Shown here: positions 1 through 58,249 of the stretch, piece by piece
Numbering within the stretch: the first letter of the stretch is position 1
Layout: each line of letters begins with the position of its first letter
Program-made: the position numbers and the translations under genes
Source: a virus
Length of the DNA: 61,224 bases
Reading direction: 5' to 3' (one strand)
IMG/VR virus record: IMGVR_UViG_3300005253_000610
Span: 1-61,224 of that record
The notes under the pieces: generated by a model
What the model saw: only the letters and a program-made list of their open reading frames with translations
The model's database searches: none
Told to the model about the DNA's origin: nothing

Positions 1-527
1 TCGTATATATCGGCGAGGATAAGACTCTCTGGACGCGAGTCATCGGCAACTTCGATGTGTCTAGCATCCCCGCCGGAGCCACTATCGACGCGGCCAAGCT
101 CGTACAGGAGGTGACGCTTTCTAATGGTAGCGCAGCGGGAAAGGTAAAGCGTTGTACGCGCCCCGCCGATTGGGTGGAGAATCAAGTCACCTGGGACGAC
201 TACAAGACGAGTACCGCCTGGACGACCGGCGGCGGGGACTTCGATAACACAACGCCGACTCCTGTAGCCTTCACCTTTCCAGCCTCGACGGGAACGTGGG
301 AGATCACCGGCATGGCGGGGTTCGTGGCTGACGCCCTCGCCCACCGGAGGGATATCGTCTCGGTCATTTTCTTCTTTGACGACGAAGACCCAGGCAGCAA
401 CGTGGGTGGCAACTGGGATTCGAGCGAACACACCACCGAAGCCAACCGCTGGAAGCTGGTGGTAGAGTGGGTAGCTTCATTGCCTCACATACGAGGCCGA
501 TCAATGGCCCATCTTATAGTTAGATAG
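1..527 (+). CDS. DNRLRE-like virion protein, 5' truncated
   Basis: The reading frame is open from base 3 to the stop at 527 and has no start inside the window; the GTG at 57 is internal. The visible part reads YIGEDKTLWTRVIGNFDVSS then IPAGATIDAAKLVQ, the pattern of DNRLRE-type carbohydrate-binding beta domains (a strand with Leu/Phe-Asp-Ser, then IPxGAxI). It is followed by WVENQVTWDDY and a C-terminal WKLVVEW strand. Such domains usually sit in extracellular or virion-surface proteins. The missing N-terminus is probably the 14-codon fragment at 61181-61224. It opens the rightward virion cluster, 18 bp before the next gene. Confidence 0.6.
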   Translation, partial: VYIGEDKTLWTRVIGNFDVSSIPAGATIDAAKLVQEVTLSNGSAAGKVKRCTRPADWVENQVTWDDYKTSTAWTTGGGDFDNTTPTPVAFTFPASTGTWEITGMAGFVADALAHRRDIVSVIFFFDDEDPGSNVGGNWDSSEHTTEANRWKLVVEWVASLPHIRGRSMAHLIVR

Positions 528-545
528 AGAAAGGAAGGAAAGGAT

Positions 546-1028
546 ATGGGAAGGATTTATACTGCGAGGTTTGAGGCAGTGAATGTATCTGCTGCCCAGG
601 ATGTATTCTCTCTCGGTTCACCGACTTCAGGAGTAGGCTTGCTCCACGCAGTCTACCTCTCACAGACTTCAGACGTAGGTGACTCAGCAGAGATTATTGA
701 AGAAGTCAGGATCGTCACGGGAAACACTACAGTAGGATCGGGCGGGTCCGCTCCTACAGCAATTCCGTTTCAGTTAGGAGATACGCCGACTGTTACTGTG
801 AGAGCAAATGATACCACAGAGGTCAGCGCCGGGACACAGGTAATTAAGTTCAGCGATGCGTGGAATGTTCGTGTTGGTTGGCAGTATCTCCCAACTCCTG
901 AAACGCGCATCTACTGGAACGAGTTGATCGCTGGCACGAAAACGTTCTTAGCTATACAGCTTCCCGGCGCTCCTGCTTCGGCAATTACTATGACGGGGAC
1001 AATTATCTTCGAGGAAATCTTAGGCTAG
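546..1028 (+). CDS. Virion structural protein (unknown family)
   Basis: 160 residues, with a strong GGAAGGAAAGG ribosome site upstream of ATG. It has a beta-rich sequence, a Gly/Ser/Thr-rich centre and a 'WNVRVGWQYLPTPE' stretch near residue 115. I associate that stretch with uncharacterised siphovirus or podovirus virion proteins, but I cannot name the family. It lies in the late virion cluster and shares one base with the next gene. The role (capsid decoration, fibre or attachment) is not visible. Confidence 0.6.
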   Translation: MGRIYTARFEAVNVSAAQDVFSLGSPTSGVGLLHAVYLSQTSDVGDSAEIIEEVRIVTGNTTVGSGGSAPTAIPFQLGDTPTVTVRANDTTEVSAGTQVIKFSDAWNVRVGWQYLPTPETRIYWNELIAGTKTFLAIQLPGAPASAITMTGTIIFEEILG

Positions 1029-1261
1029 TGTCCTACGGTGTCTATCGTCGGCGACCTTTTGTACAGCAGCGTAGTCGCACGATTGGTGTACTGACAAACG
1101 CAGGAGGTGCGCCTGCTACTACATCGTTGCCCCTGCCGCGTAGACTTTTACCGTGGGCTGTCTATTATCGACCTCCTACAGCGGTCTATAGGCAACACGG
1201 CTATGTGGCTGTATTATCAAAATCGGCCACCCTAGCCCGCTTTGCGGGGATCATTGGATAA
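1028..1261 (+). CDS. Small hypothetical protein of the virion cluster
   Basis: 77 residues starting at GTG 1028, which overlaps the previous TAG by one base, the coupling used throughout this genome. It is Arg- and Pro-rich, basic, and has repeated YRR/YRP pieces. No recognised domain. The overlap supports it as real. It is the last gene before a strong promoter. Confidence 0.5.
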   Translation: MSYGVYRRRPFVQQRSRTIGVLTNAGGAPATTSLPLPRRLLPWAVYYRPPTAVYRQHGYVAVLSKSATLARFAGIIG

Positions 1262-1263
1262 TC

Positions 1264-1298
1264 CTAACCTTTACGTAAGGGTTAGATTGTGGTATAAT
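1264..1298 (+). promoter_or_regulatory. Sigma70-like late promoter with palindromic -35 region
   Basis: TTTACG (1270-1275), 17-bp spacer, TATAAT (1293-1298) preceded by TGTGG. The -35 box sits inside a 22-bp near-palindrome (1264-1285, 10 of 11 pairs), so a regulator could cover it. The leader 1299-1377 holds TGGGA/TCCCA and GTTAG/CTAAC hairpins before a GAAGGAG ribosome site. Related promoters: 3748, 44805, 56206 and, leftward, 39307. Confidence 0.75.
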
Positions 1299-1377
1299 TA
1301 AGTGTGGGACCATGATCCCATAAGTCCGTTAGTGTGAGATACTCTAACGAGTTTCTCCGAGAAGGAGTAAAGAATCT

Positions 1378-2226
1378 ATGGCTACCGTAGGGGGACAGAC
1401 CCCCAACTTCCAGACCAACTTTTCAGGACGAATCTTCCGTACAAGGATGTTGCGGGATAAGATTGGGCCAGATGACCCAACCTATCACCTACTCATGCTT
1501 CAGGCGAAGCGCGACGTTTTCTCAATCTTCGATGACTTCCTCACCACACTAGACAATACAGGCCAGACAGAGATTTTCTGGACGCCTAGTGCTGCCGGAT
1601 CAAACGGTACTGCGCCTACAGAACGTACTGGTGGTGGGAGCTTGCAGGGTGAGATTATCTTTGACAGCACAGCGAATAACGACGGTAGCTCAACGCTGTT
1701 TTCTGAGACCGTCTTTACGGCTGACCACCGGCCCGTATGCCTATGGCGTATGCAGATGCCGAGTTCCGTAGCCGCAGGTAAGTTTGAACTAGGCTTCGCT
1801 GCTGAGCTAGGGGCGGCATCAGATGAGAATGAAGGCGTTGTAGCGGTGAAGGCTACGCCCACATCCAGCGGGACCGACTATGCAGTCATAATCTATGACA
1901 CGGATGACTCAGCCGCAGGCTCGGACGTGGGCCTAGTATCTGATGGGACAGACGATGCCGTATCTTCCGTAGATGGGTCGCCGGGGATCACGTTTACTAC
2001 ACAGACGTACTACGACATGATGCTCGCTATTGATGAGCAGAAGCGGTGTTCCTTCTGGATCGACTCAACATTCCAGGGATTTACTACGACCGCTCCGGAT
2101 ACTGATAACACGACACTCCTTGGGCTTTACGCTTTTTGTCAGTCTAGGGATGGTACTGCGAACACAATGGTACTTGACTTTGTACTTGCCTGGCAAGAGC
2201 GGAATAGACTACCGTTGTCGCTGTAA
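1378..2226 (+). CDS. Virion protein, lectin-like beta fold, paralogue A
   Basis: 282 residues behind a GAAGGAGTAAAG leader. The second half has K-F-E-L-G-F, GVVAVKATPT, a YDTDD strand-turn and a final LDFVLAWQER. The same blocks recur in the same order in the next gene (KFEFGF, GVVLVKATPT, FDTDD, LDYMQAWQER), so the two are tandem duplicates. The spacing suggests a concanavalin/LamG-like jelly roll, as in fibre or decoration proteins; this is inference. First gene after the 1270 promoter, so probably abundant. Confidence 0.65.
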   Translation: MATVGGQTPNFQTNFSGRIFRTRMLRDKIGPDDPTYHLLMLQAKRDVFSIFDDFLTTLDNTGQTEIFWTPSAAGSNGTAPTERTGGGSLQGEIIFDSTANNDGSSTLFSETVFTADHRPVCLWRMQMPSSVAAGKFELGFAAELGAASDENEGVVAVKATPTSSGTDYAVIIYDTDDSAAGSDVGLVSDGTDDAVSSVDGSPGITFTTQTYYDMMLAIDEQKRCSFWIDSTFQGFTTTAPDTDNTTLLGLYAFCQSRDGTANTMVLDFVLAWQERNRLPLSL

Positions 2227-2237
2227 GGGAGGGATTG

Positions 2238-3077
2238 ATGCCAACAGCATTTAGACTTCCTAATGACCACCTAACAAGGATACTTCTCCAGTCCGATGTG
2301 GGGCGGGACTCTTTGCTGGAGTTTCTCTGCACGGACAGCATTTACAGCTTCAAGGATGACTTTGACAAGGATGACCTATCCGACTACTGGGGGGTCGCTC
2401 ATGGTGAAATCGGCTCCCCAACAGATGGTGTCACAGATTTCCACTTTGTAGATGATGCCATTAACGGATTCATTGAAGGCGATCCTGGCGAAGTGGATGA
2501 TGCAGATATTCGCCTCTTCAGTAAGCACGCACTGTGGTCCCCCGCCCGACGCTGCGTAGTGCAGACATCCTTTGACATATCTAGTCTAACGAGCGCGAAG
2601 TTTGAGTTCGGATTCGCTCACCCCTCCGTTGAACTGGATTCGCCTACCCTATCTGGTGTAGTGCTCGTAAAGGCGACACCGACCGCTAATGAACTTACAG
2701 GCACGTTCGCTGTAGCAGTGTTCGATACGGATGACGACACGAACTGTGACCTTACGACACAGACAGCGGGTACCGTTGCCTCTGTTGCACAGACTGGGGC
2801 ACCTACGTTGAGCGTTCCGGGACCGATCTCGATTATGGTGGCTATGACTGAAGGCGGGGGCGTGCGCTACTGGATCAACGGCGTTCCTGCTGGGTTCGTG
2901 CAGACCGCTCCACGTACAGTAGACGAAACCTTTGGTGTACTTGGTGGAGAGGCTGCTGATCATGGAACGGGGGCGAACATGCACCTTTGGTTCATGGTAC
3001 AGAACCGTGCATCTGGCGTGGCGCATAGTACCCGTCTAGATTATATGCAGGCGTGGCAGGAGAGGGAGATAGTATAA
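2238..3077 (+). CDS. Virion protein, lectin-like beta fold, paralogue B
   Basis: I start at ATG 2238 rather than the in-frame TTG at 2235, because GGGAGG sits just upstream. About 279 residues, paralogous to the preceding gene (shared KFE-GF, VKATPT, DTDD and AWQER blocks). The N-terminus differs and carries an acidic FKDDFDKDDLSDYW stretch. The stop TAA overlaps the ATG of the next gene (TAATG), implying translational coupling. Likely a surface virion component; the exact role is unknown. Confidence 0.65.
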   Translation: MPTAFRLPNDHLTRILLQSDVGRDSLLEFLCTDSIYSFKDDFDKDDLSDYWGVAHGEIGSPTDGVTDFHFVDDAINGFIEGDPGEVDDADIRLFSKHALWSPARRCVVQTSFDISSLTSAKFEFGFAHPSVELDSPTLSGVVLVKATPTANELTGTFAVAVFDTDDDTNCDLTTQTAGTVASVAQTGAPTLSVPGPISIMVAMTEGGGVRYWINGVPAGFVQTAPRTVDETFGVLGGEAADHGTGANMHLWFMVQNRASGVAHSTRLDYMQAWQEREIV

Positions 3078-3745
3078 TGCCACAGTTCATGCGCCCGACA
3101 TCTGATCTCATCCGAAGCGTTCTGCCTATTGAACGCCAGCAAAAGAACTCAAGCGGAACCTTTGTACTCACTACGATGACCCCTGCTGGTCAGAAGCCAG
3201 CCCTCTCTACAGGTGCGTCAGCCTTTGGAGTTATTGATGAGGCGAATCGTGATACCTCAGACTACTTCGAGTCTGCACTAGATGCGATTGGCGGAGTTGT
3301 AGCAGTTGAGACAGGGAACCCCTCCTCAACACCTATAAGCAACCGTAACCACTTCCTCCGTGTGGCTGTTGGAAAGAACTCTTCTGGCGGTGAAGACTTA
3401 GCCTGTACAATAGAAATTCGACAGGGCTATTCGGATGAGACGGACGCAAACAGAGGAACACTTGTTGCTGCGATCCGCGTACTCGTGCCCGATAGCCTTA
3501 CTACATACACCCGCCGTCTTACCGAAGCAGAGGCGATTCTGATCACTGACTATACCGATGTCCAGTTCCGTTTCGTCATGCGTAAGGTAGGGGGAAGTGG
3601 TGGTGCTCGTCGCGTGCGCGTATACTGGGCAGAACTAGAAGTCCCCAGCTTAGGCGCGCCGCTGGACAAGGACATTAAACTGTCTCAGAATGAGCTTCGC
3701 CTACAACAAATGGGCGAGTCTATTGCTGGACGTGTCGAACCCTAA
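3077..3745 (+). CDS. Virion structural protein
   Basis: About 222 residues. I chose ATG 3077 because it overlaps the previous TAA and follows GGAGAGGGAG; an upstream GTG at 3053 lies inside the previous gene. The N-terminal RPTSDLIRSVLP resembles the RLPNDHLTRILLQ opening of the previous protein, hinting at a shared anchoring segment. The remainder is beta-rich (LACTIEIRQGY, VQFRFVMRKV, VRVYWAELEV). No named family recognised. Confidence 0.6.
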   Translation: MPQFMRPTSDLIRSVLPIERQQKNSSGTFVLTTMTPAGQKPALSTGASAFGVIDEANRDTSDYFESALDAIGGVVAVETGNPSSTPISNRNHFLRVAVGKNSSGGEDLACTIEIRQGYSDETDANRGTLVAAIRVLVPDSLTTYTRRLTEAEAILITDYTDVQFRFVMRKVGGSGGARRVRVYWAELEVPSLGAPLDKDIKLSQNELRLQQMGESIAGRVEP

Positions 3746-3776
3746 CCTTGACGTAAGGGTGAGGGTGTGGTATACT
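3743..3776 (+). promoter_or_regulatory. Sigma70-like promoter for the triplicated virion genes
   Basis: TTGACG (3748-3753), exactly 17 bp, then TATACT (3771-3776) with TGTGG before it. It overlaps the previous stop codon. The leader 3777-3861 contains a TAGCTG/CAGCTA hairpin and ends in AGAAAGGAGTAAG before the next ATG. A close relative of the 1270 promoter. Confidence 0.8.
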
Positions 3777-3861
3777 GATCATAGAGGCGGTAGCTGAGTC
3801 CCAGCTATGCGGCCCGCTCCTAGATATATAGGAATATAGGATTAGAAAGGAGTAAGTATAT

Positions 3862-4533
3862 ATGAGCGAATATGGCTTTCGCGGACTCGTAAGACAAGGA
3901 AGCGTAACTAGAGTAAACGACGGATCGTGGGTGGGCCTGAGAGCCCTCCGTGACGGTGCTGCCGTTCTCTGCCCCTGGTATCAGGCTCTCGTTCTTGAGG
4001 GGCGTTGTTTCTCTGCTGCTGCCCCTGGTACGTATGACCATGCTGGTCTTACGGTTATGGCCACGTATGCAGATACATCCAAGACAGTTGCGGTAGATAT
4101 TCCCGATGCCACTGCTGGTATCCCCTTGTATATGGAGGGGAGTTTCCTCGCTACTGGCGGTGCTGTTGTTCATGCTTCAGGTATGGTAAATACAGCACTG
4201 AACGGTACAGGCGGAACGGAGACTGAGATATCTGAATTGAATCTCCGACTAGATAATCCCGTTTCATCTGGTGCAACGGCTATGCATACCGTCTCAAGTG
4301 CAGTGGATAACGTAGATGGGACTGAGAGGGTACTGTTCCACTTCGCTACAAGCCAAGACCTCGACGCAGTTGCACTGGACCCCCGCAGCTCTCTGTGGTC
4401 TATTGGAGAAGTTGGTCTTGCGCCTGTTGTTCTAGACGCCTCATCGATCAACCTCGTAATGTTTACAACCACTTCCGGCACTGGCTTTGGATTGGTTGCT
4501 TGGGCCGAACTCCCTGAGTCGGCCATTACTTAA
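3862..4533 (+). CDS. Virion protein, triplicated family, copy 1
   Basis: 223 residues. First of three adjacent paralogues that share LRALRDGA, a tryptophan-containing WYQALVLEGRCFSA block (about residues 38-52), APGTYD, a VDIPD/IPLY strand, LNLRLDNP, SGATAMHT, TERVLFHFA, QDLDA and a C-terminal WAELPESA. Mostly beta-structure. It comes directly after a strong promoter, so it is probably a high-copy virion component. I know no function. Confidence 0.65.
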   Translation: MSEYGFRGLVRQGSVTRVNDGSWVGLRALRDGAAVLCPWYQALVLEGRCFSAAAPGTYDHAGLTVMATYADTSKTVAVDIPDATAGIPLYMEGSFLATGGAVVHASGMVNTALNGTGGTETEISELNLRLDNPVSSGATAMHTVSSAVDNVDGTERVLFHFATSQDLDAVALDPRSSLWSIGEVGLAPVVLDASSINLVMFTTTSGTGFGLVAWAELPESAIT

Positions 4534-4551
4534 AAAGAAAGGAGTAAAGAT

Positions 4552-5208
4552 ATGGATATTCGTGTACTTGCACAACAGGAAAGCCCGTCGCGTGGAAATG
4601 ACGGACAGCTTGTAGCACTAAGGGCGCTCCGTGATGGAGCAGTCATTACCTGTCCGTGGTATCAGGCCCTTGTCCTCGAAGGGCGGTGCTTTTCGGCGAC
4701 AGGCCCAGGAACGTATGATCATGCGGGCATGACACTAAGAATAACTGAGGCAACCGATGAGGCCGCAGTAACGGTGGATATTCCTGACGGTCTGGCAGCT
4801 ATTCCTCTCTATGCAGAGGCCAGCTTCCTCGCTACAGGTGCGATTATTGTTCACGCAGCCTTCTTTGTTGGACTTCTACCTTATGGGGTAGCCAGTGCAA
4901 CATTGGTAAGCGCACTTAATCTGAGGCTCGATAACCCAATCGCGTCCGGCGCAACGGCACAGCATACTAATAACTCTGGTATAACTGTCGTTGACGGTAC
5001 AGAGCGGATGATGTTCCACTTTGGTACAGCACAGGACCTTGACGCGACCGTTATCAATCCTCGTCGAACGTGGTCAGTTGCGGATGCAGGGTATGCCCCC
5101 GTCGCTATGGATGCGTCGTCCCTGGCCTTGAAGATGTCGGCTGCAACGTCGGGTACTGGCTTTGGGCTTGTTGCCTGGGCTGAGTTGCCCGAATCGGCTA
5201 TCAACTAA
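4552..5208 (+). CDS. Virion protein, triplicated family, copy 2
   Basis: 218 residues, 18 bp after copy 1, with the same AAAGGAGTAA ribosome site. It keeps all shared blocks (LRALRDGA, WYQALVLEGRCFSA, LNLRLDNP, SGATA, TERMMFHFG, QDLDA, WAELPESA) but diverges most in the middle (residues 70-125). This looks like gene amplification followed by divergence. Role unknown. Confidence 0.65.
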   Translation: MDIRVLAQQESPSRGNDGQLVALRALRDGAVITCPWYQALVLEGRCFSATGPGTYDHAGMTLRITEATDEAAVTVDIPDGLAAIPLYAEASFLATGAIIVHAAFFVGLLPYGVASATLVSALNLRLDNPIASGATAQHTNNSGITVVDGTERMMFHFGTAQDLDATVINPRRTWSVADAGYAPVAMDASSLALKMSAATSGTGFGLVAWAELPESAIN

Positions 5209-5226
5209 TTTGAAGAAAGGAGTAAT

Positions 5227-5886
5227 ATGTCTGACGCACGTGTAAAGATTCAACAGCAAAACGTTAGCCGTGAATCGGACGGAAACTGGACTAACCTCCG
5301 TGCCCTCCGTGACGGTGCTATGATTGCTGTGCCTTGGTATCAGGCATTGGTACTAGAAGGACGTTGTTTCTCAGCAGCCGCACCGGGAACGTATGATATT
5401 ACTGGTGTGACTACGATGGGAACGTATGCAGATACGTCCAAAACGCTTGCTGTGGATATTCCCGATGGCACAGCGGCTATTCCGCTGTATATTGAGACCA
5501 ACTTCAACCTGAACGCCGCTACCGTGAGCCACATGTCCGCTATGGTCACGGTGCTGCTTAACGGTACAGGCGGGTCGGAAACTGAAGTATCGGAATTGAA
5601 CCTTCGGGCCGACAACCCTGTGGCTTCCGGCGCAACTGCAATGCATACCGTAACGTCCGCAGTGGATAATGTGGACGCTACCGAACGTGTACTATTCCAC
5701 TGGGCCAGCGCACAGGACTTGGATACAGTTGACCTTGATCCGTATATCAGGTGGAGCGTAGGAAAGACCGGAATTGCCCCTGTCGTTATTGACGCAGGAT
5801 CAATTGCCACCGTCATGTTCAATGCGACGAGCACCGGCTTCTCCCTTATCCACTGGGCAGAGATTACCGAATCGGCATTTAACTAA
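5227..5886 (+). CDS. Virion protein, triplicated family, copy 3
   Basis: 219 residues, again 18 bp after its neighbour and with GAAAGGAGTAAT upstream. It is closer to copy 1 than to copy 2 in the central part (YADTSKT, LNGTGG-ETEVSELNLR, HTVTSAVDNVDATERV). It ends in WAEITESAFN. The constant 18-bp spacing and repeated ribosome site fit serial duplication of a gene-plus-leader unit. Confidence 0.65.
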   Translation: MSDARVKIQQQNVSRESDGNWTNLRALRDGAMIAVPWYQALVLEGRCFSAAAPGTYDITGVTTMGTYADTSKTLAVDIPDGTAAIPLYIETNFNLNAATVSHMSAMVTVLLNGTGGSETEVSELNLRADNPVASGATAMHTVTSAVDNVDATERVLFHWASAQDLDTVDLDPYIRWSVGKTGIAPVVIDAGSIATVMFNATSTGFSLIHWAEITESAFN

Positions 5887-5937
5887 GATACCTGGCAGTG
5901 CTGCCGCAGTGCTGCCTCGTTACAAGGAGGAATTGAC

Positions 5938-6294
5938 ATGGTAAGTGAACCTGAACAGGTTGCTGAGCATCCGAGTTTTAGATTCGTATGTTCAGGATGT
6001 AGGGCCTTTCGTGACCAACAGATACGAAACAAAGACGCTAGGTTTATCAAGTGTGTCTGTGGTGAGAAGGCAGAGAAGATAGATAATAGTCCTAAAGACA
6101 AGGATGAACGTATTAAGTGGTGGACATATCCCAACGGGGAGTATGCTCCTGGTAAGTTTTCAGATAACCCTGATGCGGGAGCCGCCATTGGTAGGATGAT
6201 GGGTATGGGTGGAACGTCCTCTAAGGAATCGAAGCCTACAGGGTTCTTGGGCCGTATCTTTCAGGCTGTTAAGTATATACTAGGGAGAGTGTAA
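5938..6294 (+). CDS. Small zinc-ribbon-like protein
   Basis: 118 residues with a perfect ACAAGGAGG ribosome site. CSGC near residue 19 and CVCG near residue 40 form a two-knuckle zinc ribbon. Then comes a charged segment with KDKDERIKWWTYPNG, a Gly/Met-rich linker and an amphipathic C-terminus (GFLGRIFQAVKYILGRV) that could contact membrane or protein. Function unknown. It is followed after one base by another zinc-ribbon gene. Confidence 0.55.
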   Translation: MVSEPEQVAEHPSFRFVCSGCRAFRDQQIRNKDARFIKCVCGEKAEKIDNSPKDKDERIKWWTYPNGEYAPGKFSDNPDAGAAIGRMMGMGGTSSKESKPTGFLGRIFQAVKYILGRV

Positions 6295-6295
6295 G

Positions 6296-6637
6296 ATTCC
6301 TATCTACGATTTCACTTGCAAGAGCTGTGGTACGACGTATGAGCGGCGTGCTGGGTATAATGACTCTACTGTCCCCTGTGATAATTGTCAGGGGACTGCT
6401 ACACGTAAGCAGGTCTATCGGCAGAGTCTTGTCGTAGACCCTGCGATGCCGCCACAGGAAAACATGGTAGAGGTCCAAGGTGCGTTGGATCAGGAGATGA
6501 GGAAGATCGGTTGGGATGGCGACCGTGCTGTAGATGAATTGCGTCACGCCTTCCAGTACAACGAACAGGGGCAGGGCGAGCTGGACATGAGCAAGATGAG
6601 CAAGACTGCCAGCAAGCGTGGAACGGATGTAGACTAG
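6296..6637 (+). CDS. FmdB-type zinc-ribbon protein with ATT start
   Basis: About 113 residues. The frame opens (M)PIYDFTCKSCGTTYERR, the hallmark opening of FmdB-type zinc ribbons, which normally read MPIYEY-C-x2-C. The Cys pairs are residues 8/11 and 28/31. The codon at the expected Met is ATT (6296-6298), with GGGAGAG upstream; the first ATG (6446) would delete the whole ribbon. I therefore infer initiation at ATT. The C-terminal half is charged. The stop overlaps the GTG of the next gene. Confidence 0.6.
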   Translation: MPIYDFTCKSCGTTYERRAGYNDSTVPCDNCQGTATRKQVYRQSLVVDPAMPPQENMVEVQGALDQEMRKIGWDGDRAVDELRHAFQYNEQGQGELDMSKMSKTASKRGTDVD

Positions 6638-7947
6638 TGGCAACCGTAACAGGGACAAATATCCGACTGGAGTTGCAGAAGTGGGGGATCATTCTCCTGA
6701 CAGGTGCTCCCAGTGCCACAGGCGCAGTCGGATACCTGACTGACACGGAGATGTTGCAGGCAGACACTATAGCTCCTACCATCTTTGATGGGGCTTATGT
6801 TCGTATCAATACAGCAGGAGGCGTCGCTGCCGGGGAGATCGTTCGTGTAGATTATGTAGACGGTGTAAATGGGAGATTGAATGTTACACCTGATTGGTCC
6901 TCCGCGCCAACTACTAGCGCACGGTACGAAATCTTCCGTCCTGGTGTTGATCCTGATGACGCAGACAGGGCGAGGGATAACGCCCTAACGGACGTGTGCA
7001 GCCAGTGGTATCTCCATCCAGTGTCGGAGGTTACTAATGCTGCCTATGTGGAGGCGCTTAGCTCATCGAATTGGGAGGCGATTAACAACGCCGCTATCGC
7101 CAAGCAGGTTCTTGGCTTCCCAATGGAGTTCGCCAGGGATTCCATCCTTGTTACTAACTCAGGAGCAAACGGAGGCGCAGAATCCTTCTCCATCTACACA
7201 CAGCCGGGCAAGAGCTTTTACCTTTGGGTTCCAGTGAGTGGGCGGACAGGAACAGCAGAGGTTGTTGTACGCGATATAACAAACAGTGCAGACATAACCC
7301 TCAACGGTACGTCCACACTTACAGGGCGCGGGTGGTCTGCTATTGAAGTAACCGGACAGATACCAAGCGGATGCTATGAGATCACAATTCGCCTACAGGC
7401 ACAGGGGGCAAGTGATATAGCAGAGTATGGTCCCATTTGCTTCCACTGGCAGGAACAGCGGCGTATCAGCCTGCCTGCGCGTGTGGTTAGCCGTGAATGG
7501 GTGGGGCCAGTACAGAGGCTCACTAACCAGGCAATTGCTGACGACAACTGGGCGCAGGAGGATATAAATGAGGTACTAGGTGTCCGTGTCGAGCAGGTAT
7601 CAGATAATGTTCAGCTACGATTTAACGAACCGCTAAGTACACAACCCCACTTCTATCTGGAGCGGGCGTATTATAGTGCTCTGTCCGCAACGTATATTAC
7701 GGATGCAGCACGGGCTACGGGGGATGCAGCTACCACGCTCTGTCCTACGGACTATGTAGTCCCCGCAATGACGAAACTGCTTGCTGAACAGTATAGGATC
7801 AAACACTCATGGGATAGTGAGTTCTGGGACGGCGTGCTACAACAGGCTACACGGGAACTGGCTATTAAAGAGAAGCTGTATGGGCCGAAGACAAAGGCGC
7901 GTATCGAACGTGCGCGGGGGATAAGTATCCCTAACTTGAGAATATAG
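6637..7947 (+). CDS. Virion structural protein with internal carbohydrate-binding-like domain
   Basis: 436 residues from GTG 6637. The N-terminal part has alternating beta segments. Residues about 165-270 (SILVTNSGANGG, then SFSIYTQPGKSFYLWVPV and YEITIRLQAQG) look like an inserted jelly-roll/CBM-like module. The C-terminus is helical (VPAMTKLLAEQYRIKH, then LAIKEKLYGPKTKARIERAR). Position between head and attachment genes suits a neck or tail-connector protein, but I recognise no family. Confidence 0.55.
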   Translation: MATVTGTNIRLELQKWGIILLTGAPSATGAVGYLTDTEMLQADTIAPTIFDGAYVRINTAGGVAAGEIVRVDYVDGVNGRLNVTPDWSSAPTTSARYEIFRPGVDPDDADRARDNALTDVCSQWYLHPVSEVTNAAYVEALSSSNWEAINNAAIAKQVLGFPMEFARDSILVTNSGANGGAESFSIYTQPGKSFYLWVPVSGRTGTAEVVVRDITNSADITLNGTSTLTGRGWSAIEVTGQIPSGCYEITIRLQAQGASDIAEYGPICFHWQEQRRISLPARVVSREWVGPVQRLTNQAIADDNWAQEDINEVLGVRVEQVSDNVQLRFNEPLSTQPHFYLERAYYSALSATYITDAARATGDAATTLCPTDYVVPAMTKLLAEQYRIKHSWDSEFWDGVLQQATRELAIKEKLYGPKTKARIERARGISIPNLRI

Positions 7948-10122
7948 ATGGCCGTACAGGAGCCTGTTCCAGAAGAAGAACGGATTAAAACCGTCCGACT
8001 GTTTGCGTCGGCGCATAATGGGTTCGGTGATGAGAGGCAGGGGGCACAGGACTTCCGCTATAACCGGAACCATCGGGGGTTTGATCCTCGCTTCCCCGGT
8101 GAGTTGAGGTTCGGGGACAATGTTACCCGTATTACCTATACCTCCTCTCCTGATAGCCCACCAATGATCGTGATCCCCTGGCGTGAAGCTAACTCTAATG
8201 GCCAAGAGGGAATCATGTGCTTTACGGATAAGGGAAATGAATTCTTACGAAGAGGGGGGTTTGGGAACCTTGGGGGCAGTACGGGAAACACTGACGCAGC
8301 CCCACACGATGCAGGAGATGGTATTGAATTTCTCTACTATGTGCAGGGCACCTCTGACGGTCTTAACAAGATCGCAATTGGTGGAGGCGTTAGCGGCACA
8401 GCAGACTCAGCGCCGTGGAACATCGATAAGATTACATCTATCTCTGGGCAGCTATATGCGTCTGTGCAACAGTCAGGATCAGTCCGCTGGAATTCGATTC
8501 AGTTCGTCCCATTCGGCTCCGACCCCTTCACTTCAGGTAACTGGTCCTCTGTAACTCGCGTAGGTTGGCCCCATACGGACATTAACAACATCGTTGCCCT
8601 CCGTGGTATCCCTGTCGTTCTCAAGCCTGAAGGTATATATATGTATAATCGTGCCATCGATCAGTGGGAAAACATGACTCCAGCTTGGGAGTTGGAAACT
8701 CATCCAGACAACGGGCGGGCTGCTGTTGCACTTGGATCGAACCTTCTTGTTACAAAGGGTGAGGGGGGTGCAGTCGTCTTTAATGGAACCAATGAATTTG
8801 ACGTGAGTCCTTATAACAACAATGTACCTGGAGTAGATACGCCTTCTCAGTTGATCTCTTGTCTTGGCTTATGGGGAACGAAAGTGATCGCAGTAACATC
8901 TACGGCCCGCTCCCCTATTGGGGGATCAGGAGATAAGAGTACACACGAGACTGCTTGGGGGTGGGGAGTAAACTCGAAGCTCATCCAACTGGGGGGTGAG
9001 ACAAATACTGATCTCCGCTTTTGGAAGACTACGGATAATGAGAGCACCTTTACACTTTACACACAACCACGAGACGGAAGCATCACAACTGGTGCCACAC
9101 TCAACAGCCTCGACACGGCAGCGAATGGAGACTACTTCTATATCGGTGCTCCGTGGCCGTGGGGGGCGGCACACATTGAGTTCGATGAGGATAACACGCT
9201 GCAAAACGATAATGCGGCCACCCTCGCTGCTGAGTATTGGGACGGTTCAGCATGGCAGACGATGACGATTGTGGACTTTACCGACGTTGCTGGTGATACA
9301 CTCAAAAAGACGGGCATGGTCTTCCTCACTGCTAACCCCTCTGACTGGACAGCAAGGACAATAGATACCGACAGTGTTAATTACTACTATATACGCTTCA
9401 ACGTAAGTGCTGCTCTTGACTCCACAGTGTCCGTTGCTGAGGTCAGACTTCTTCCTTGGAGGCCAACGATTGATGCCACCCTCGCAAATCTGGGCGCAGA
9501 TGGGAGGGATCGCCAAGGTATGATCCCACATATCCTCCTGGGTGAATTGAATGACAAAGGAGACTTCATCTGGCAAGACATGGGAGCAGCGACAGTCAAC
9601 TCCGGGGGCACAGAGCCGGATGTAGACGAGATCGGTGTTGTAGCTGTCGGCTTGGTTGGTGGGGGTGATGGCCCAGCGTATAGGAAAGTTGTCTGCTTTG
9701 GTAGGAGAGCAGCATACATCCACCACATGAATAATAGTCAGGTCTGGGTCAGGCCACCGAGATCAGGGCTCTTTGAAGCTTCTGATTTTGAGGTTGCGGA
9801 TGGGAAAGCTGTTTCCCTGCGAGAGGTGCGTATCTTCGGACGTGACTTTGACGGCGTAGATAACTTTGCCTTCTACTATAGGTATGATCCCAATCAGCCT
9901 TGGGCGGTTGTACACATGGGCGCACGTCCGCCTTTTACTAAGAAGCTGACGGATCGTGGTGGAGGGACTACCTTCCAATGGGCCATTGCCTACACACGAA
10001 CAAGTCTTGTACCTCTGAAGAGACGGCCTGCGATTACGGGTATAGACGGTGTGTTTGAAATCCTCCCCGAACTTGCTGACCGGCACGTGCAACGGACCAT
10101 AGCAGACAGTCCTAGAGGTTAA
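7948..10122 (+). CDS. Large beta-propeller-like virion or tail protein
   Basis: 724 residues, starting immediately after the previous stop. Repeated beta blades are suggested by periodic elements (FLYYVQGTSDGLNKIAI, ITSISGQLYASVQQ, INNIVALRGIPVVLKPEGIY, GSNLLVTKGEGGAVVFNG, LGLWGTKVIAVT), about 40-45 residues apart over residues 60-330. A central YYIRFNVSA-type beta domain and a C-terminal beta region follow. Likely a tail or receptor-facing structural protein; the fold is inferred from spacing only. Confidence 0.5.
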   Translation: MAVQEPVPEEERIKTVRLFASAHNGFGDERQGAQDFRYNRNHRGFDPRFPGELRFGDNVTRITYTSSPDSPPMIVIPWREANSNGQEGIMCFTDKGNEFLRRGGFGNLGGSTGNTDAAPHDAGDGIEFLYYVQGTSDGLNKIAIGGGVSGTADSAPWNIDKITSISGQLYASVQQSGSVRWNSIQFVPFGSDPFTSGNWSSVTRVGWPHTDINNIVALRGIPVVLKPEGIYMYNRAIDQWENMTPAWELETHPDNGRAAVALGSNLLVTKGEGGAVVFNGTNEFDVSPYNNNVPGVDTPSQLISCLGLWGTKVIAVTSTARSPIGGSGDKSTHETAWGWGVNSKLIQLGGETNTDLRFWKTTDNESTFTLYTQPRDGSITTGATLNSLDTAANGDYFYIGAPWPWGAAHIEFDEDNTLQNDNAATLAAEYWDGSAWQTMTIVDFTDVAGDTLKKTGMVFLTANPSDWTARTIDTDSVNYYYIRFNVSAALDSTVSVAEVRLLPWRPTIDATLANLGADGRDRQGMIPHILLGELNDKGDFIWQDMGAATVNSGGTEPDVDEIGVVAVGLVGGGDGPAYRKVVCFGRRAAYIHHMNNSQVWVRPPRSGLFEASDFEVADGKAVSLREVRIFGRDFDGVDNFAFYYRYDPNQPWAVVHMGARPPFTKKLTDRGGGTTFQWAIAYTRTSLVPLKRRPAITGIDGVFEILPELADRHVQRTIADSPRG

Positions 10123-10124
10123 GA

Positions 10125-10946
10125 ATGGCCATCGGACTACCGACTATCGAAGAGGAACTCAACTCCCTTAAAGTGCGGCTAGATCAACTCCGTCCTACAG
10201 GATTGCAGGAGAACTTCTACATTGGTGGCGTCCATCGTGGGCGGATCAAATTATGGGATACGCTGACTGACGGATCAGCCTTCGCAAATGATGTACTTGC
10301 TATATCCCTAAAGTCTAGTGCAACTGCTAGCTTTAGTCATGTATTAGGGCTTAATGCAGCCGGACGGTTAGAACTTCCTACAGCGGGGTCCAGCGCAGGC
10401 ATTCTTGCAGGAGGTGATACACTGTGGTATCGCTCAGCAGCCGACACGTGGCGTACACCTGATAGTGTCATCATTGACGCTGCATTAACTGTTACAACAA
10501 CCTTCACACCACCAGATGAGAGTATTCTTTCCCGTTACCTAGCCCCTGTTATCATCCACGAAGCCTGTACAGGGGATGTAACCATCAACTCCACTACCGA
10601 TACTGATATTACAGGCTGTACAACAACCTTCACACCGGCCATCGCTTCGGTTGCTCTCGTTGTGGGTATGTATGACATTGATGGAACTCACGAGGGTGAG
10701 ATATTTGCGGGGGACTTAGACGTAGACGGGACAGACGAAAGCAGCTCAATGATTTACGAGGTAGCGACTGCTGGTAATGATCGGAAGACGATGCCGATGG
10801 TGTGGCTAGTCGCTTTGACAGCCGCCGAGCACACCTTGAAGCTCCAAGCCCGTCGCGTGGTAGGAGCAAATACCGCTACCGTACGTGCGACTCACACAAA
10901 ACTAGTAGTTCTGCTCTTAGGGGATGCGAACGCGACAATATCATAA
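10125..10946 (+). CDS. Tail-fibre-like protein
   Basis: 273 residues. It opens with a short coiled-coil-like helix (IEEELNSLKVRLDQL), then a small beta region, then a C-terminal beta domain (about residues 140-268: VTINSTTDTDITGCTTTF, AALTAAEHTLKLQARR, THTKLVVLLLG) with the look of the trimerising jelly-roll heads of phage fibres. The helix-plus-head arrangement and last place in the rightward virion cluster suggest a fibre or spike. Its TAA overlaps the next ATG. Confidence 0.5.
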   Translation: MAIGLPTIEEELNSLKVRLDQLRPTGLQENFYIGGVHRGRIKLWDTLTDGSAFANDVLAISLKSSATASFSHVLGLNAAGRLELPTAGSSAGILAGGDTLWYRSAADTWRTPDSVIIDAALTVTTTFTPPDESILSRYLAPVIIHEACTGDVTINSTTDTDITGCTTTFTPAIASVALVVGMYDIDGTHEGEIFAGDLDVDGTDESSSMIYEVATAGNDRKTMPMVWLVALTAAEHTLKLQARRVVGANTATVRATHTKLVVLLLGDANATIS

Positions 10947-11182
10947 TGGAACTTGATGACATCCAAAACGACATCCAAGAGCTAAAGGATTGGGCTGCAC
11001 GGCATGATGACAGCCACACGGCGGATACTAAGCTGCTAGCGTCCATACTAGACAGCCTAAGTACTCACGAACATAACCATCATGGATTGCGAACGACTCT
11101 AACCCGTGGCGGGGGGATCGCTGCCGGGGTCTCCGCTATCCTCATCGTCCTCGCTGAAGTCCTTACCCGCCTCATACTTTAG
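10946..11182 (+). CDS. Holin-like small membrane protein
   Basis: 78 residues, start fixed by the TAATG overlap at 10946. The N-terminal half is helical and hydrophilic (MELDDIQNDIQELKDWAARH). The C-terminus is one strong membrane segment (GGGIAAGVSAILIVLAEVLTRLIL, about residues 53-76). This layout resembles XhlA-type lysis proteins. It is the last gene of the rightward block and its 3' end overlaps the convergent gene below by 84 bp. Confidence 0.5.
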   Translation: MELDDIQNDIQELKDWAARHDDSHTADTKLLASILDSLSTHEHNHHGLRTTLTRGGGIAAGVSAILIVLAEVLTRLIL

Positions 11183-11521
11183 CCTAGCCTTACGGTTCCG
11201 CCCATCTCTCGTGAGCCGCCTTGCTGCGCGATTAGGTCCAGCAATGGACTCTACATGAGCATCGTCCATGCCTGCTAGCCGTGCTTCAATATCTTCCATA
11301 CGCCAGTCAAGAGATTCAAGCTGTTGGTAGCCCTGCTCTACTTGGGCCTTCTCTACTTCCTGTGCATGGGGATCATTCTCAATATGTTGGACCACGATCA
11401 TTGTCCGTGATGCCCGTTCCTTGAGGGCTGTCAACTCCTGCATGAGATGATCACGGTGCTGCTTGGGATCAACCCGTGCAGCAAGGCTCTCTAGTAGGTT
11501 ACGTCGGTTCTTCTTGGACAT
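11099..11521 (-). CDS. Coiled-coil hypothetical protein
   Basis: 140 residues, start adjacent to the upstream stop (TAA then ATG). Long charged helices with heptad character run over residues 15-85 (LMQELTALKERASRTM, EKAQVEQGYQQLESLD). A basic stretch (NRAARRLTRDGRNRKARLKY) and an acidic Pro/Gly tail follow. No family known. Its 3' end overlaps the convergent holin-like gene. Confidence 0.5.
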   Translation of the reverse strand: MSKKNRRNLLESLAARVDPKQHRDHLMQELTALKERASRTMIVVQHIENDPHAQEVEKAQVEQGYQQLESLDWRMEDIEARLAGMDDAHVESIAGPNRAARRLTRDGRNRKARLKYEAGKDFSEDDEDSGDPGSDPPATG

Positions 11522-11764
11522 TTAGTATACGTCTCCATTCTGGTCTATCTTTAGTTCTTCATATGCAGCAATTCGCCGTCTGTAAAGTTCCAGCTTCGCG
11601 CCTTCTAATGCGCCGAGGATGTCATTGTAGCTCTGGTAACTCTCACCATTGGATTCTAGGTACTCGACAGCCGTCATCGTTATCAGATAGTTTAGTTCCC
11701 CTGCGGTTTTAGGCGAGTGTCCACAGTCTAAGTGAAGCCGTCTGGATTTATCTATATACGGCAT
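11522..11764 (-). CDS. DUF6899-like phage protein
   Basis: 80 residues beginning MPYIDKSRR, then AGELNYLIT, an ALEGAKLELYRR helix and a KIDQNGDVY end. I recognise this combination (MPYI..., GELNY, GALE-AKLE-YRR, NGDVY) as the small conserved phage family usually labelled DUF6899. The function is unknown. It sits between a deoxyribosyltransferase-like gene and the last gene of the leftward operon. Confidence 0.7.
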   Translation of the reverse strand: MPYIDKSRRLHLDCGHSPKTAGELNYLITMTAVEYLESNGESYQSYNDILGALEGAKLELYRRRIAAYEELKIDQNGDVY

Positions 11765-11766
11765 GC

Positions 11767-34697: not shown

Positions 34698-34730
34698 TCT
34701 TACCTCCTATATACGATGCTAGTAGATACT

Positions 34731-34746
34731 GGTCGTGATCACGACC
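34731..34746. promoter_or_regulatory. 16-bp perfect palindrome upstream of the Ubl gene
   Basis: GGTCGTGATCACGACC is a perfect palindrome in the 71-bp gap between the membrane peptide and the Ubl gene. It could be an operator for a homodimeric regulator or an RNA stem. No strong promoter is visible beside it. Confidence 0.5.
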
Positions 34747-34768
34747 CTTCGTTGCAGCCAGTAAAATG

Positions 34769-34858: not shown

Positions 34859-34860
34859 GA

Positions 34861-38547: not shown

Positions 38548-38552
38548 GTTAC

Positions 38553-38714: not shown

Positions 38715-38722
38715 GATTCCTC

Positions 38723-38896: not shown

Positions 38897-39278
38897 TGTT
38901 TCCCCCTACTAGGCACAGTAGCCTAGCTATAGCTTCTCTTGGTTTCCTACTACCGGCCTTGCAGCATTCCCTACATCACCTAGCCTTTCTGACTACCGCC
39001 ACCCACTGGTGATACTCGTATCCCATGCACGAGCTGTTAGCCCCATATGTAGATGCCCGAACACGGATACTACACCGCGAACATTCTACCATCGTATACT
39101 GAGGGACCACCTGTTGTTTGGCATCCACGGAATACTCCCTTCTATTCCTCGTTCTATTGCTTCTACTCTACTCCTTCCTCCGCCTCTTGTCAATCCCCCA
39201 AATGTTTGCATATCTCTCTGACTCTAACCTTTACGTCAACGTGAGGGTTCCTCTAACCCTATTCTAATCGCGCGTACG

Positions 39279-44796: not shown

Positions 44797-44804
44797 CCCC
44801 ATCC

Positions 44805-44834
44805 TTGACGTTAACGTAAGGGTCATGGTATACT
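44805..44834 (+). promoter_or_regulatory. Sigma70-like promoter for the packaging and head module
   Basis: TTGACG (44805-44810), 18 bp, TATACT (44829-44834), with ATGG before it and an ACGTTAACGT palindrome overlapping the -35. The leader 44845-44943 has a GGGGG(G)CC/GGTCCCCC hairpin. Confidence 0.75.
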
Positions 44835-44844
44835 TAGTATAGTG

Positions 44845-44943
44845 CAGTATGAGTATGGGTGCGATGCCTGTACTTTGGGGGGCCGATGACTGCCTCCTTC
44901 AAAGGTCCCCCAGCACTATTCTTATGAGATGTGAGGACAGCAG
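44845..44943 (+). promoter_or_regulatory. Structured leader before the packaging module
   Basis: 99 bases with a GGGGGGCC...GGTCCCCC stem over about 44876-44911 (8 pairs, one G-U). No U tract follows. It ends in GAGGACAGCAG before ATG 44944. Possibly a stability or attenuation element. Confidence 0.4.
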
Positions 44944-45090: not shown

Positions 45091-45483
45091 ATGCCAGATA
45101 AGGGAGGCGCTAGGATAAGTGATAACCGTCGTCGGCGTATACTGGATCGGACTGACGGTTATATTATCAAACATCTGCCAGAGTATATTGGAATCCTTGA
45201 AGAACTGGCTAAAGGTGTATGGTTTGAGAAAGTAGATGGACGGTCTGATACCTCAAAGATATATAGGCAGATACCTGATCGTCAGGCACTTGAGTTCCTG
45301 ATTGAGCATGGGATTGGTAAGGTCCCCCAGAGGCATGAGCTATCAGGAGAAGAAGGTGAAGTTACGTTCATCCCATGGGTGCCCACGCTGACACCTAAAC
45401 CGAAGGAGATCGAAGGAGAAGTAGTAGATGCCGAGACATACGAAAAAGAGGAAACCGAAGGGGTAGCTAGTGGCACGTCCTAA
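45091..45483 (+). CDS. Putative terminase small subunit
   Basis: 130 residues directly before the large terminase, with a 14-bp overlap. The N-terminus is basic (NRRRRILDRTD), then helices (YIGILEELAKGVW, DRQALEFLIEHGIGKVP), then an acidic tail. Size and position suit a DNA-recognising small subunit. No sequence family is recognisable, so this rests on context. Confidence 0.5.
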   Translation: MPDKGGARISDNRRRRILDRTDGYIIKHLPEYIGILEELAKGVWFEKVDGRSDTSKIYRQIPDRQALEFLIEHGIGKVPQRHELSGEEGEVTFIPWVPTLTPKPKEIEGEVVDAETYEKEETEGVASGTS

Positions 45484-46915
45484 GGCTCGTTTAAGCGCAC
45501 AACAGCAGGCGATCCGTAAGGGCGCTGGCCCGTCTGCCAATCGTAAGGTCTTATATAAGACCCATGTCGGCGCACAGTCAGACTTTCTCATGAGTGAGGC
45601 AGAGGAGGTACTGTATGGTGGGGCGAAGGGCGGGGGGAAGTCCTATGCGCTGAGGGCCTATGCTGTAAATTACTGTATGAGCTTTCCTGGGGCGCGTGTA
45701 GTCCTATTCCGCCAGTCCTACCGCCAGTTGGAAGAGACACATATTATCTCCATCCAACAGGAAGTGCCCCAGAGCGTGGCCCACTATTCCTCAGGCTCAC
45801 ACGATCTGATCTTTACAAATGGCTCCATCCTCCACTTGCGTTACTGTGAGAAAGATGAGGATGCCAGGGGCTACGACACGGCTGAGTTCGACGCCATGCT
45901 CTTTGACGAGCTGACTCACTTTACGGAATTCACCTACACTTACCTGACCACCCGCTGCCGCTCTACGAAACCTTGGTGGACTGGACCCAGGATACGTGCT
46001 GGTGCTACCCCTCTAGGGCGGGGGCACGGTTGGGTAAAGGCGCGCTGGCTTGACAACTCGAACGTTAAGCCGAATGAGGTTTGGAAAGGCCCTGCTGACG
46101 AAGGGGGCATGACGCGCCAATTCATTCCCGCTATTGTTACCGATAATCCTACACTGATGAAGGCTGATCCTAAGTATGTAGAACGTCTCCGCGCGCTGAC
46201 TCGTGAAGAGTATAAAGCTGCGATGGGGAACTGGGACGTGTTCATGGGACAGTTCTTTCAGCGGTGGGAGCCTACAATCCATGTAGTCCAGCCCTTCGAC
46301 ATTCCGGCTGACTGGGACCGCTTCATGTGTGTAGACTATGGGTTCGCTGCGCCCTACTGTGTGCTGTGGTTTGCCCGTCCGCCTGGGACGAAATCTGCAT
46401 ACTTCTATCGTGAACAGTATGGTGTGGGGGTAAAACTCCCTGAACAAGTCTATAGGGCACACCAGTCTGTGGTTGATTCCTCAGAGAAGATTCGAGCCAT
46501 TATTCTCGACCCCTCAATGTTTGGCAAGATCAATGTTAAGGGGGATCGTGTGGAGTCCCTATCTGCTGAATGGGAGAAACAGTTCGGCGGCACAACTAGG
46601 ATTATCAAAGGAAACAATGAACGGGTTGCGGGATGGCGGAAGTTACGTGAGATGATCGACTGGACAGAGGCCCCACAAGGGGGGATTTTGGCACACCCTC
46701 ACTTGTATGCCTTTAATACCTGTGTTAATCTAGTCCGAACACTGCCCCTGTTGATCTCAGACGAGCACAACATTGAAGATGTAGATTCTGATGGGGAAGA
46801 CCACGCCGGGGATGCTGCTAGGTATGGTATACAGCACGCCTTTGCTGGGGGTGGCAGGCACGGCGTACAGCGCAGTTACAGTCTTGGCCCTAACGGTATT
46901 GTGGTGAGGAGGTAA
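45470..46915 (+). CDS. terL: Terminase large subunit
   Basis: 481 residues from GTG 45470. ATPase: YGGAKGGGKSYALRA (Walker A), VVLFRQSYRQLEE, FDAMLFDELTHF (Walker B with catalytic Glu). Coupling and nuclease: VDYGFAAPYCVLWFA with Asp of motif I, then LDPSMFG and an acidic EDVDSDGEDHAGDAARYG (nuclease end, DxD). It is the ATP-driven packaging motor and cutter. Length is usual for the family. Confidence 0.9.
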   Translation: MARPKARLSAQQQAIRKGAGPSANRKVLYKTHVGAQSDFLMSEAEEVLYGGAKGGGKSYALRAYAVNYCMSFPGARVVLFRQSYRQLEETHIISIQQEVPQSVAHYSSGSHDLIFTNGSILHLRYCEKDEDARGYDTAEFDAMLFDELTHFTEFTYTYLTTRCRSTKPWWTGPRIRAGATPLGRGHGWVKARWLDNSNVKPNEVWKGPADEGGMTRQFIPAIVTDNPTLMKADPKYVERLRALTREEYKAAMGNWDVFMGQFFQRWEPTIHVVQPFDIPADWDRFMCVDYGFAAPYCVLWFARPPGTKSAYFYREQYGVGVKLPEQVYRAHQSVVDSSEKIRAIILDPSMFGKINVKGDRVESLSAEWEKQFGGTTRIIKGNNERVAGWRKLREMIDWTEAPQGGILAHPHLYAFNTCVNLVRTLPLLISDEHNIEDVDSDGEDHAGDAARYGIQHAFAGGGRHGVQRSYSLGPNGIVVRR

Positions 46916-56196: not shown

Positions 56197-56205
56197 ACCT
56201 TCACC

Positions 56206-56234
56206 TTGACGTTAGGGTTAGGGTATGATATACT
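56206..56234 (+). promoter_or_regulatory. Sigma70-like promoter before scaffold and capsid genes
   Basis: TTGACG (56206-56211), 17 bp, TATACT (56229-56234), with GATA before the -10 and TTAGGGTTAGGG in the spacer. It lies ten bases after the giant gene stop and should boost capsid expression. Confidence 0.8.
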
Positions 56235-57343: not shown

Positions 57344-58249
57344 TTGGCTATTACAGACCGTGAGATGACCAGCACCACGCACGATGACTTTCTTCCGATT
57401 GTGTGGGCTGATGACACGCGCGATGCGATCCAGTTTAATGAAGTGCTACCAAAGCTTGTAAATACGTCTTATGAAGATGAGCTTCGTGTAGGTCGCGTGC
57501 TTCGTATTCCGTTGCGGGCGAACTATGACACGCAGACTAAGAGCGAGGGTGTTGGAAACACCATTAGCTTTCAGTCTGTACCCGGAACTGGAGCGTTTGG
57601 AAACGTACAGGATGTGACGGTGAATACGTTTGAGTATGCAGCCGCACTTCTGAACGCCGTCGTTGCTGCTCAGTCTAAGTATGATGAGCGCCAGCGAATC
57701 GCACAGGGTATTGGATATGCACTCATGCGTGGTATGGAGGTTAGCATTTCTGCCCTCTTCCAAAGCTTTACTCAGATCGTTGGTACGCTTGGTGCCGACC
57801 CTGACGATGCTGTGCTACGGCGTGCGTGGCAGTACCTAGCGGATTCTGGTGTGTATGACAACGCTTCGTGGGTCTTTGGCCCTGCTGCTGTTTCTGCACT
57901 CTTTGGTAACAACAAGTTTACCAGCAAGGACTTTGTAGATGCGAAGTCGGTTATTGAAACTGCTACGCTTCCTCCGCTCTACAACTATCCAGCATATAGT
58001 TCTAACCTGCTTAGGGCACCGTCTACTGGACAGACTGACTGTACGCTAATGCACAAGGAAGCTATTATCCTAATCCGTCAGATCAAGCCCACGTTCCGTG
58101 AGCAGTTCCTTATTAGGAATCTTGCAGACGGAATCGTTGCCTACAACCTCTACGTGGCTGCTGAAGCTAACTGGGTGGTTGAGACACCGGCTACAAATGC
58201 TGACCCCACTACGACGGATGCGGGCGGCGTTTTGATCCGAACCGGATAG
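57344..58249 (+). CDS. Major capsid protein
   Basis: 301 residues from TTG 57344, with AAGGAG nine bases upstream. Alpha/beta sequence: TSTTHDDFLPIVWADDTRD, LRVGRVLRIPLRANYDTQ, VTVNTFEYAAALLNAVVAAQ, GIGYALMRGMEVSISALFQ, and a C-terminal GIVAYNLYVAAEANWVVE strand-helix typical of coat proteins of small HK97-fold heads. Position right after the scaffold supports the call. Sequence family unnamed. Confidence 0.8.
   Translation: MAITDREMTSTTHDDFLPIVWADDTRDAIQFNEVLPKLVNTSYEDELRVGRVLRIPLRANYDTQTKSEGVGNTISFQSVPGTGAFGNVQDVTVNTFEYAAALLNAVVAAQSKYDERQRIAQGIGYALMRGMEVSISALFQSFTQIVGTLGADPDDAVLRRAWQYLADSGVYDNASWVFGPAAVSALFGNNKFTSKDFVDAKSVIETATLPPLYNYPAYSSNLLRAPSTGQTDCTLMHKEAIILIRQIKPTFREQFLIRNLADGIVAYNLYVAAEANWVVETPATNADPTTTDAGGVLIRTG

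Follow-up and report, generated by a model that had tools for sequence, protein, structure and literature searches.

According to the accessible parts of the sources cited here, the Cluster A mycobacteriophages (L5, Bxb1), which are temperate phages with a known repressor, possess asymmetric 13-bp sites in 20 to 30 copies per genome, mostly off promoters (PMC6550527). In bacteriophage T4, MotA boxes have their centre between -30 and -31, and a good -10 is required at the middle promoters (PMC6755090). Lambdoid Q antiterminators have their sites within late promoters, that of phage 21 being composed of two direct 6-bp repeats (PMC6606751). In uncultured groups, little is known of how structural genes are timed by phages in which no late sigma factor, Q protein or RNA polymerase can be recognised. 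The sites of MerR-type LiuR regulators have the form TTKACGTNNACGTMAA.

Here we describe a 22-bp dyad-symmetric element, close to YTNACSTTKACGTMARGGTNAR, which lies over the -35 region of four rightward sigma70-type promoters (at 1264, 3742, 56200 and 44799/44805) of one phage genome. The window, by which we mean the whole stretch of DNA that was analysed, is a complete IMG/VR virus record of a phage (G000 below), 61,224 bases long with 51% G+C. Among its products we could recognise the terminase large subunit, the major head protein, a DNA polymerase, a helicase and an exonuclease; no tRNA was found, and Rfam gave no match at gathering scores. According to the ORF list, the rightward genes occupy two stretches, 39853 to the end and 1 to about 11,000, and the leftward genes lie between 38547 and 11,099. 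No near DNA match to positions 1-12000 was obtained in 50,697 phage records, and the protein encoded at 46918 was also without match in tblastn. A 1614-aa protein of the structural region (51352-56196, +) contains a GNAT acetyltransferase stretch at residues 520-575.

Searching viral contigs provided the following relatives, in which gene order is largely syntenic with the window:

G001: 3300005663_000868, 40.6 kb, nearly identical to the window
G003: 3300037247_000447, 38.7 kb, covering part of the genome only
G004: 3300037247_000311, 61.9 kb
G006: 3300005253_000079, 61.3 kb
G007: 3300037247_000790, 61.7 kb

Terminase identity to the window amounts to 66% in G003, 71% in G004, 60% in G006 and 61% in G007, and that of the major head protein to 74% in G003 and G004, 73% in G007 and 64% in G006. 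In G004 the terminase large subunit (5378-7567, -, locus L038) carries an insertion of about 245 residues which looks intein-like (CVGIGTPILT ... SSQN/T). Side by side at 34440-36172 (-) of the window we noticed genes for a small protein, which ends in ...LASGGVKGA and by eye resembles ubiquitin, for a ThiF/E1 protein and for a JAB-like protein, the latter two with weak matches to the 6A-MBL cap2_3 family; this gene set is present in G003 and G004 and was not found in G006 and G007.

The element and its promoters in the window

The sites, the promoters and the genes which they precede are given below.

1264..1285, plus strand: operator A, CTAACCTTTACGTAAGGGTTAG; palindromic at 10 of 11 pairs, centred at about -30.5
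1270..1298, plus strand: promoter A, TTTACG-17-TATAAT, the -10 preceded by TG; upstream of gene 1378
3742..3763, plus strand: operator B, CTAACCTTGACGTAAGGGTGAG
3748..3776, plus strand: promoter B, TTGACG-17-TATACT; upstream of gene 3862
39165..39193, minus strand: leftward early promoter candidate, TTGACA-17-TAGAGT; lies 30 bp past operator E
39224..39245, minus strand: operator E, full site within the non-coding DNA that separates the gene arms, lacking a -10 at promoter distance; 26.5 bits
39279..39313, minus strand: half-site, TTGACA-17-TATACG, lacking the right arm; excluded from the family at 11.0 bits
44760..44786, plus strand: terminator-like stem of 10 pairs, just 5' of promoter C
44799..44826, plus strand: operator C, two registers scoring alike (44799, 18.7 bits; 44805, 18.7 bits)
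44805..44834, plus strand: promoter C, TTGACG-18-TATACT; upstream of the terminase operon
45470..46915, plus strand: terminase large subunit (PHROG 979, E 3e-37), downstream of promoter C
56200..56221, plus strand: operator D, TTCACCTTGACGTTAGGGTTAG
56206..56234, plus strand: promoter D, TTGACG-17-TATACT; upstream of 56254 and then of the major head protein gene 57344
57344..58249, plus strand: major head protein (PHROG 267, E 1e-11), downstream of promoter D

Each of promoters A-D agrees with the sigma70 consensus in 10 of 12 letters, with spacers of 17, 17, 18 and 17 bp, inside the 16-18 bp range for this type, and operators A, B and D are centred at -30.5 relative to the expected start. Judging by their letters, we propose that these are ordinary promoters of the host sigma70 type with a strong and often TG-extended -10. 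They would drive terminase, capsid and tail-region genes, which suggests a late-gene operator regulon, "late" being taken from the gene content; the products of the tail-region genes 1378 and 3862, located after promoters A and B, gave no Pfam match. Three extended -10 candidates pointing rightward in the middle region (39827, 40414 and 41049) do not carry the element, thus it is not part of every promoter.

An earlier note on this DNA had listed a promoter family recurring at 1270, 3748, 44805 and 56206, and leftward at 39307. Exact hexamers with the 17-bp spacer were confirmed at 1270, 3748 and 56206; at 44805 the TTGACG and TATACT are present, but the spacer is 18 and not 17 bp. The near-perfect 22-bp palindrome claimed at 1264-1285 does pair at 10 of 11 positions. 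What had been taken for a half copy at 39225-39250 is actually a full site on the minus strand, and the leftward sequence at 39307, promoter-like and with one arm only, was rejected as a member of the family at 11.0 bits.

Allowing up to 3 mismatches, the palindrome CTAACCNTTNACGTAAGGGTNAG was found twice in the window and not once in 100 shuffles. For scoring we employed a six-site matrix made of sites from two relatives, namely five late promoters and position 47737 of G004; the C site of G003 and the relatives' sites between the gene arms were left out. Applied to the window, it gave 32.5 bits at 1264, 30.2 at 3742, 28.6 at 56200, 26.5 at 39224 (-) and 18.7 at 44805, the next non-overlapping place having 11.0 bits and nothing else exceeding 11.1. 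In 200 simulated windows the peak score of this matrix had a mean of 13.7 and a maximum of 20.7 bits, and the 44805 site alone, at 18.7 bits, would not be significant without its conserved position. As the CTTKACG seed leading to the relatives' sites came from the window, the matrix scan is not fully independent, and G007 serves as the cleaner test. In 78 terminase-bearing loci of bacterial genomes (1,264,742 bases) there was a single matrix match of at least 16 bits, at 16.1. The bare hexamer pattern has three matches without mismatch in the window and none in the reversed control; with up to two mismatches it is not above chance (16 found versus 11.6 expected, 16 being reached by 12 of 100 shuffles), and the hexamers alone were dropped as evidence.

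Conservation and anatomy of the site

When all CTTKACG occurrences in the six records were considered, the same arms appeared at orthologous places in G003 and G004. The element is located before the ortholog of 1378 in G000, G004 and G007, before that of 3862 in G000 and G004, before those of both 45091 and 56254 in G000, G003, G004 and G007, and between the gene arms in G000, G003 (twice) and G004. The arms are conserved on both sides of the -35, including the part that belongs to the spacer, where the earlier note would have given up its family had the spacer arms not been conserved. Its idea of a regulon with one shared factor gains support from these arms at orthologous late promoters and from the copies without a -10 box, and we consider it very probable that one factor serves all these sites.

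G007 was held out: it was fetched after the six-site matrix had been made, and scanned with a nine-site matrix consisting of the six sites and three window sites. Its top three loci, 5600 (-) with 31.1 bits, 10570 (-) with 20.9 and about 24240 with 17.8, are situated before the orthologs of 1378, 56254 and 45091, respectively, each with a -10-like box at promoter distance, and the next independent place has 12.8 bits. One of these three sites is palindromic at 9 of 11 positions; the third, at 17.8 bits, is close to the 95th percentile that simulated windows gave with the six-site matrix (17.5). With the nine-site matrix no match was seen in G007 before the 3862 ortholog nor between the gene arms. 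In the more distant relative G006 the element is absent, the highest score being 15.3 bits at 47267, away from the orthologous late promoters. Promoters are kept there at three of the places, with TTGACA-18-TATAAT twice and TTTACA-17-TATAAT.

Among viral contigs, CTAACCTTKACGTNAGGG was found in three stretches, two of them in G004 and one (L010) without homology to the phage group. The operator-plus-TATAMT pattern gave five stretches, of which L135 and L136 are without homology and look like chance, and TNACSTTKACGTMARGGTNA gave 24, six from the phage group and 18 without blastx match to its proteins. Since the stretches outside the group lack homology, these exact patterns did not reveal any further phage group. 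In two A+T-rich viral contigs without homology to the phage group (L155, 10839-10858, and L157, 10597-10616) we observed TTGACGTTTACGTAAAGGTAA adjoining TGTGGATAACTTTG.

The anatomy of the site was derived from 18 sites in four genomes, chosen by score, so that conservation is partly built in. In these 18 sites the strong columns are mirror-paired (T2/A21, A4/T19, C5/G18, T8/A15, A10/T13 and C11/G12), and each half consists of two 6-bp words, YTNACS and TTKACG, hence a -35-like TTGACG is possible at either word. Two helical phases relative to the -10, considered as an argument for a repressor, were dropped, the two registers at 44805 scoring 18.71 versus 18.68 bits.

Copies without a -10 at promoter distance are found between the gene arms at 39224 of the window, 12073 of G004 and 17764 and 17787 of G003, some 30 to 200 bp upstream of a leftward early promoter candidate of the form TTGACA-17-TANNNT. 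A further one, at 47737 of G004, adjoins an inserted gene. Occurring also without a -10 box, the element is more than promoter sequence. The inserted gene, of about 232 codons (G004 47035-47789; loci L040 and L023), stands between two structural-region genes and has a full operator just before its start codon, with an outward TTGACA-17-TATACT promoter alongside. As for the window region between the arms (38550-39850), it is 1.3 kb of non-coding DNA with repeats and C- and G-rich runs, a candidate origin, and the layout is similar in G003, G004 and G006.

The leader RNA of the terminase transcript

The first approximately 80 bases of the terminase transcript form a closing stem with two hairpins, which fold alone in G000, G003 and G004.

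44839..44921, plus strand: promoter C leader RNA, two neighbouring hairpins plus a closing stem, the loop of the second hairpin with TGCCTCC
L038 8162-8246, L042 14254-14333, L131 7795-7875 and L147 4634-4716, all minus strand: the same leader in relatives

In G006 and G007 the pair of hairpins is the best fold of the trimmed stretch, and a longer stretch of G006 prefers another first stem. Shuffle z-scores of the leaders range from -3.5 to -1.5. A covariance model, built from G000 and G004 only and used for searching 299,431 bases, recovers the orthologous leaders of G006 (E 1e-10) and G003 (7e-6); that of G007 is a weak match, fifth best at 0.24, with a likely chance match next at 0.39. Pairing holds for 95.6% of cells in the alignment fitted to the model, and in 19 of its 31 pairs both sides have changed, versus 4 to 8 in slid controls. 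TGCCTCC is present in the second hairpin loop in all five genomes. The start of the model falls 4 nt behind the -10 in the window, and transcription may therefore leave out the outermost pairs of the closing stem.

No Rfam family matched the leader, in 78 more distant loci the model gave one chance-level match, and no description of this RNA was found in the open-licence literature searched. As a candidate, it may be a put-like antiterminator, a translational leader or a packaging RNA. It resembles the put RNA of HK022, as described in the accessible part of PMC9378689, in being of comparable size (about 70 nt there), in having two stem-loops and in standing right behind the promoter, as putL does. 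The likeness is one of structure and position: HK022 put serves early promoters, and leader C differs in stems, loops and the closing stem. RNAs of the put type act in cis against termination, by way of the beta' zinc-binding domain. Heading the terminase operon, the leader would be a second control element that can be tested independently.

The leaders of promoters A and B (1299-1370 and 3777-3850) contain short hairpins too. The B-leader hairpin is GTAGCTGAGTCCCAGCTAT in G000 versus GTAACTGAGTCCCAGTTAT in G004, a paired change, and its shuffle test was not significant.

Function of the element and comparison with known systems

From the element shared by the promoters, its symmetry, its conserved positions and its absence from the unrelated DNA searched, we infer a binding protein, the two-fold symmetry of that protein, the negative sign of its action and the timing. 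A probably phage-encoded protein would bind the 22-bp site over the -35 (centre about -30.5) at the terminase, capsid and tail-region promoters and at the copy between the gene arms. By covering the -35, it would shut otherwise strong promoters early in infection, and the late genes would open once the protein has been removed or inactivated, or once replication has made the operators outnumber it. Three points were counted for repression, namely that the -35 is retained inside the site, that G006, lacking the element, has plain consensus-like promoters at three of the places, and that the element is also present off promoters. With the -35 kept, the -10 strong and plain promoters in G006, negative control is the simplest added function. 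Taken as a whole, a late-gene operator regulon bound by a two-fold symmetric protein and acting by repression is the reading which we favour with modest confidence.

An activator box could just as well be centred at -30.5, and the same regulon might have the opposite sign, with a phage activator recruiting or appropriating the host sigma factor in the manner of T4 MotA. Three of the four window promoter sites are centred there, beside an excellent and often extended -10, but MotA boxes replace the -35 while TTGACG or TTTACG is kept here, sites without a -10 exist, and MotCF (PF09158) matched none of five records. Moreover, G006 manages without the element, having consensus-like promoters, so an activator site seems unneeded there; we regard activation as rather unlikely, with some real weight left to it. 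The 6-bp words YTNACS and TTKACG of each half, together with a structured leader immediately after the terminase promoter, would also suit a Q-like late antiterminator, as in lambdoid phages, that is loaded at the promoter. Such a site would be expected at one promoter and not at four, nor in copies away from promoters, and Antiterm (PF03589) was found in 0 of 5 records, though PF03589 does not cover all Q proteins, which leaves this explanation quite improbable.

Phages might instead exploit the site of a host regulator, given that no phage regulator was recognised and that the longer form of the site, like the ACGT-ACGT forms at 39230 and 44805, resembles the LiuR-type motif TTKACGTNNACGTMAA. 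That motif does not contain the outer TAACC/GGTTA arms, and the copy between the gene arms and the loss in G006 fit a phage system as well, thus we consider a host regulator improbable. Finally, the sites could be similar by chance or shared ancestry alone, as sigma70 promoters of related phages, in agreement with the synteny of the relatives and the chance-level frequency of bare hexamers with two mismatches. Conserved arms and spacer part, 22 bp shared by four mutually non-orthologous window promoters, their absence from shuffles and 1.26 Mb of control DNA, and also G007 speak against it, and we give it hardly any credence.

In the search for the protein of the favoured repression reading, 75 window proteins scanned with Pfam gave no DNA-binding regulator domain. 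HTH_3, MerR_1, RHH_1 and Sigma70_r4 each matched none of five records, two of these searches, that for HTH_3 included, having G001 in the set in place of G007. A tyrosine integrase was likewise found in 0 of 5 records, which makes a lysogeny repressor unlikely; with neither it nor HTH_3 found in the records searched, a temperate-phage immunity operator is not supported. As mere candidates we name the product of the first leftward gene (38038-38547; model pLDDT 63, no PDB match at E 0.001) and the pair at 41893-42402 and 42375-42821, whose model (pLDDT 46) is too poor to judge. This pair (+) consists of Cys/His-rich paralogs in tandem which contain a GRPRxYLN motif; four relatives have one copy, and the proteins may bind zinc and DNA. 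Relatives of the gene at 43402-44214 were found in G004 and G007, weakly in G003, and not in G006, a distribution which fits the spread of the operator; as a DNA binder its product is a candidate only. As the sites are located to the base and persist in diverged genomes, a short DNA bait could fish out the factor.

A more elaborate scheme, which we put forward as a speculation and judge unlikely, is a two-part late switch. A regulator of unknown fold would act on all main late promoters through a single symmetric operator and be titrated by replication via the copy at the candidate origin region, which would open the late genes; the terminase transcript would then begin with a put-like RNA that takes the polymerase along the whole of the long late operon.

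Operators that overlap promoters are familiar from phages, and no earlier description of this operator with its target set was found in the open-licence literature searched. Like the operators/stoperators of Cluster A mycobacteriophages, as presented in the accessible part of PMC6550527, the element is a phage-specific repeated site with some copies within promoters and a motif that drifts among relatives; it differs in forming five symmetric 22-bp sites, mainly at structural-gene promoters, in a genome where no integrase or repressor was seen. With the MotA-box middle promoters of T4, so far as they are described in the accessible part of PMC6755090, it has in common the centre near -30.5 beside a strong, often extended -10, whereas here the element is a palindrome, keeps the -35, marks structural genes and comes with no MotCF match. 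The lambdoid Q-binding elements, as the accessible part of PMC6606751 presents them, are similar in lying inside late promoters and in being composed of 6-bp words, while the element described here occupies several promoters, has inverted symmetry and off-promoter copies, and is accompanied by no Antiterm match.
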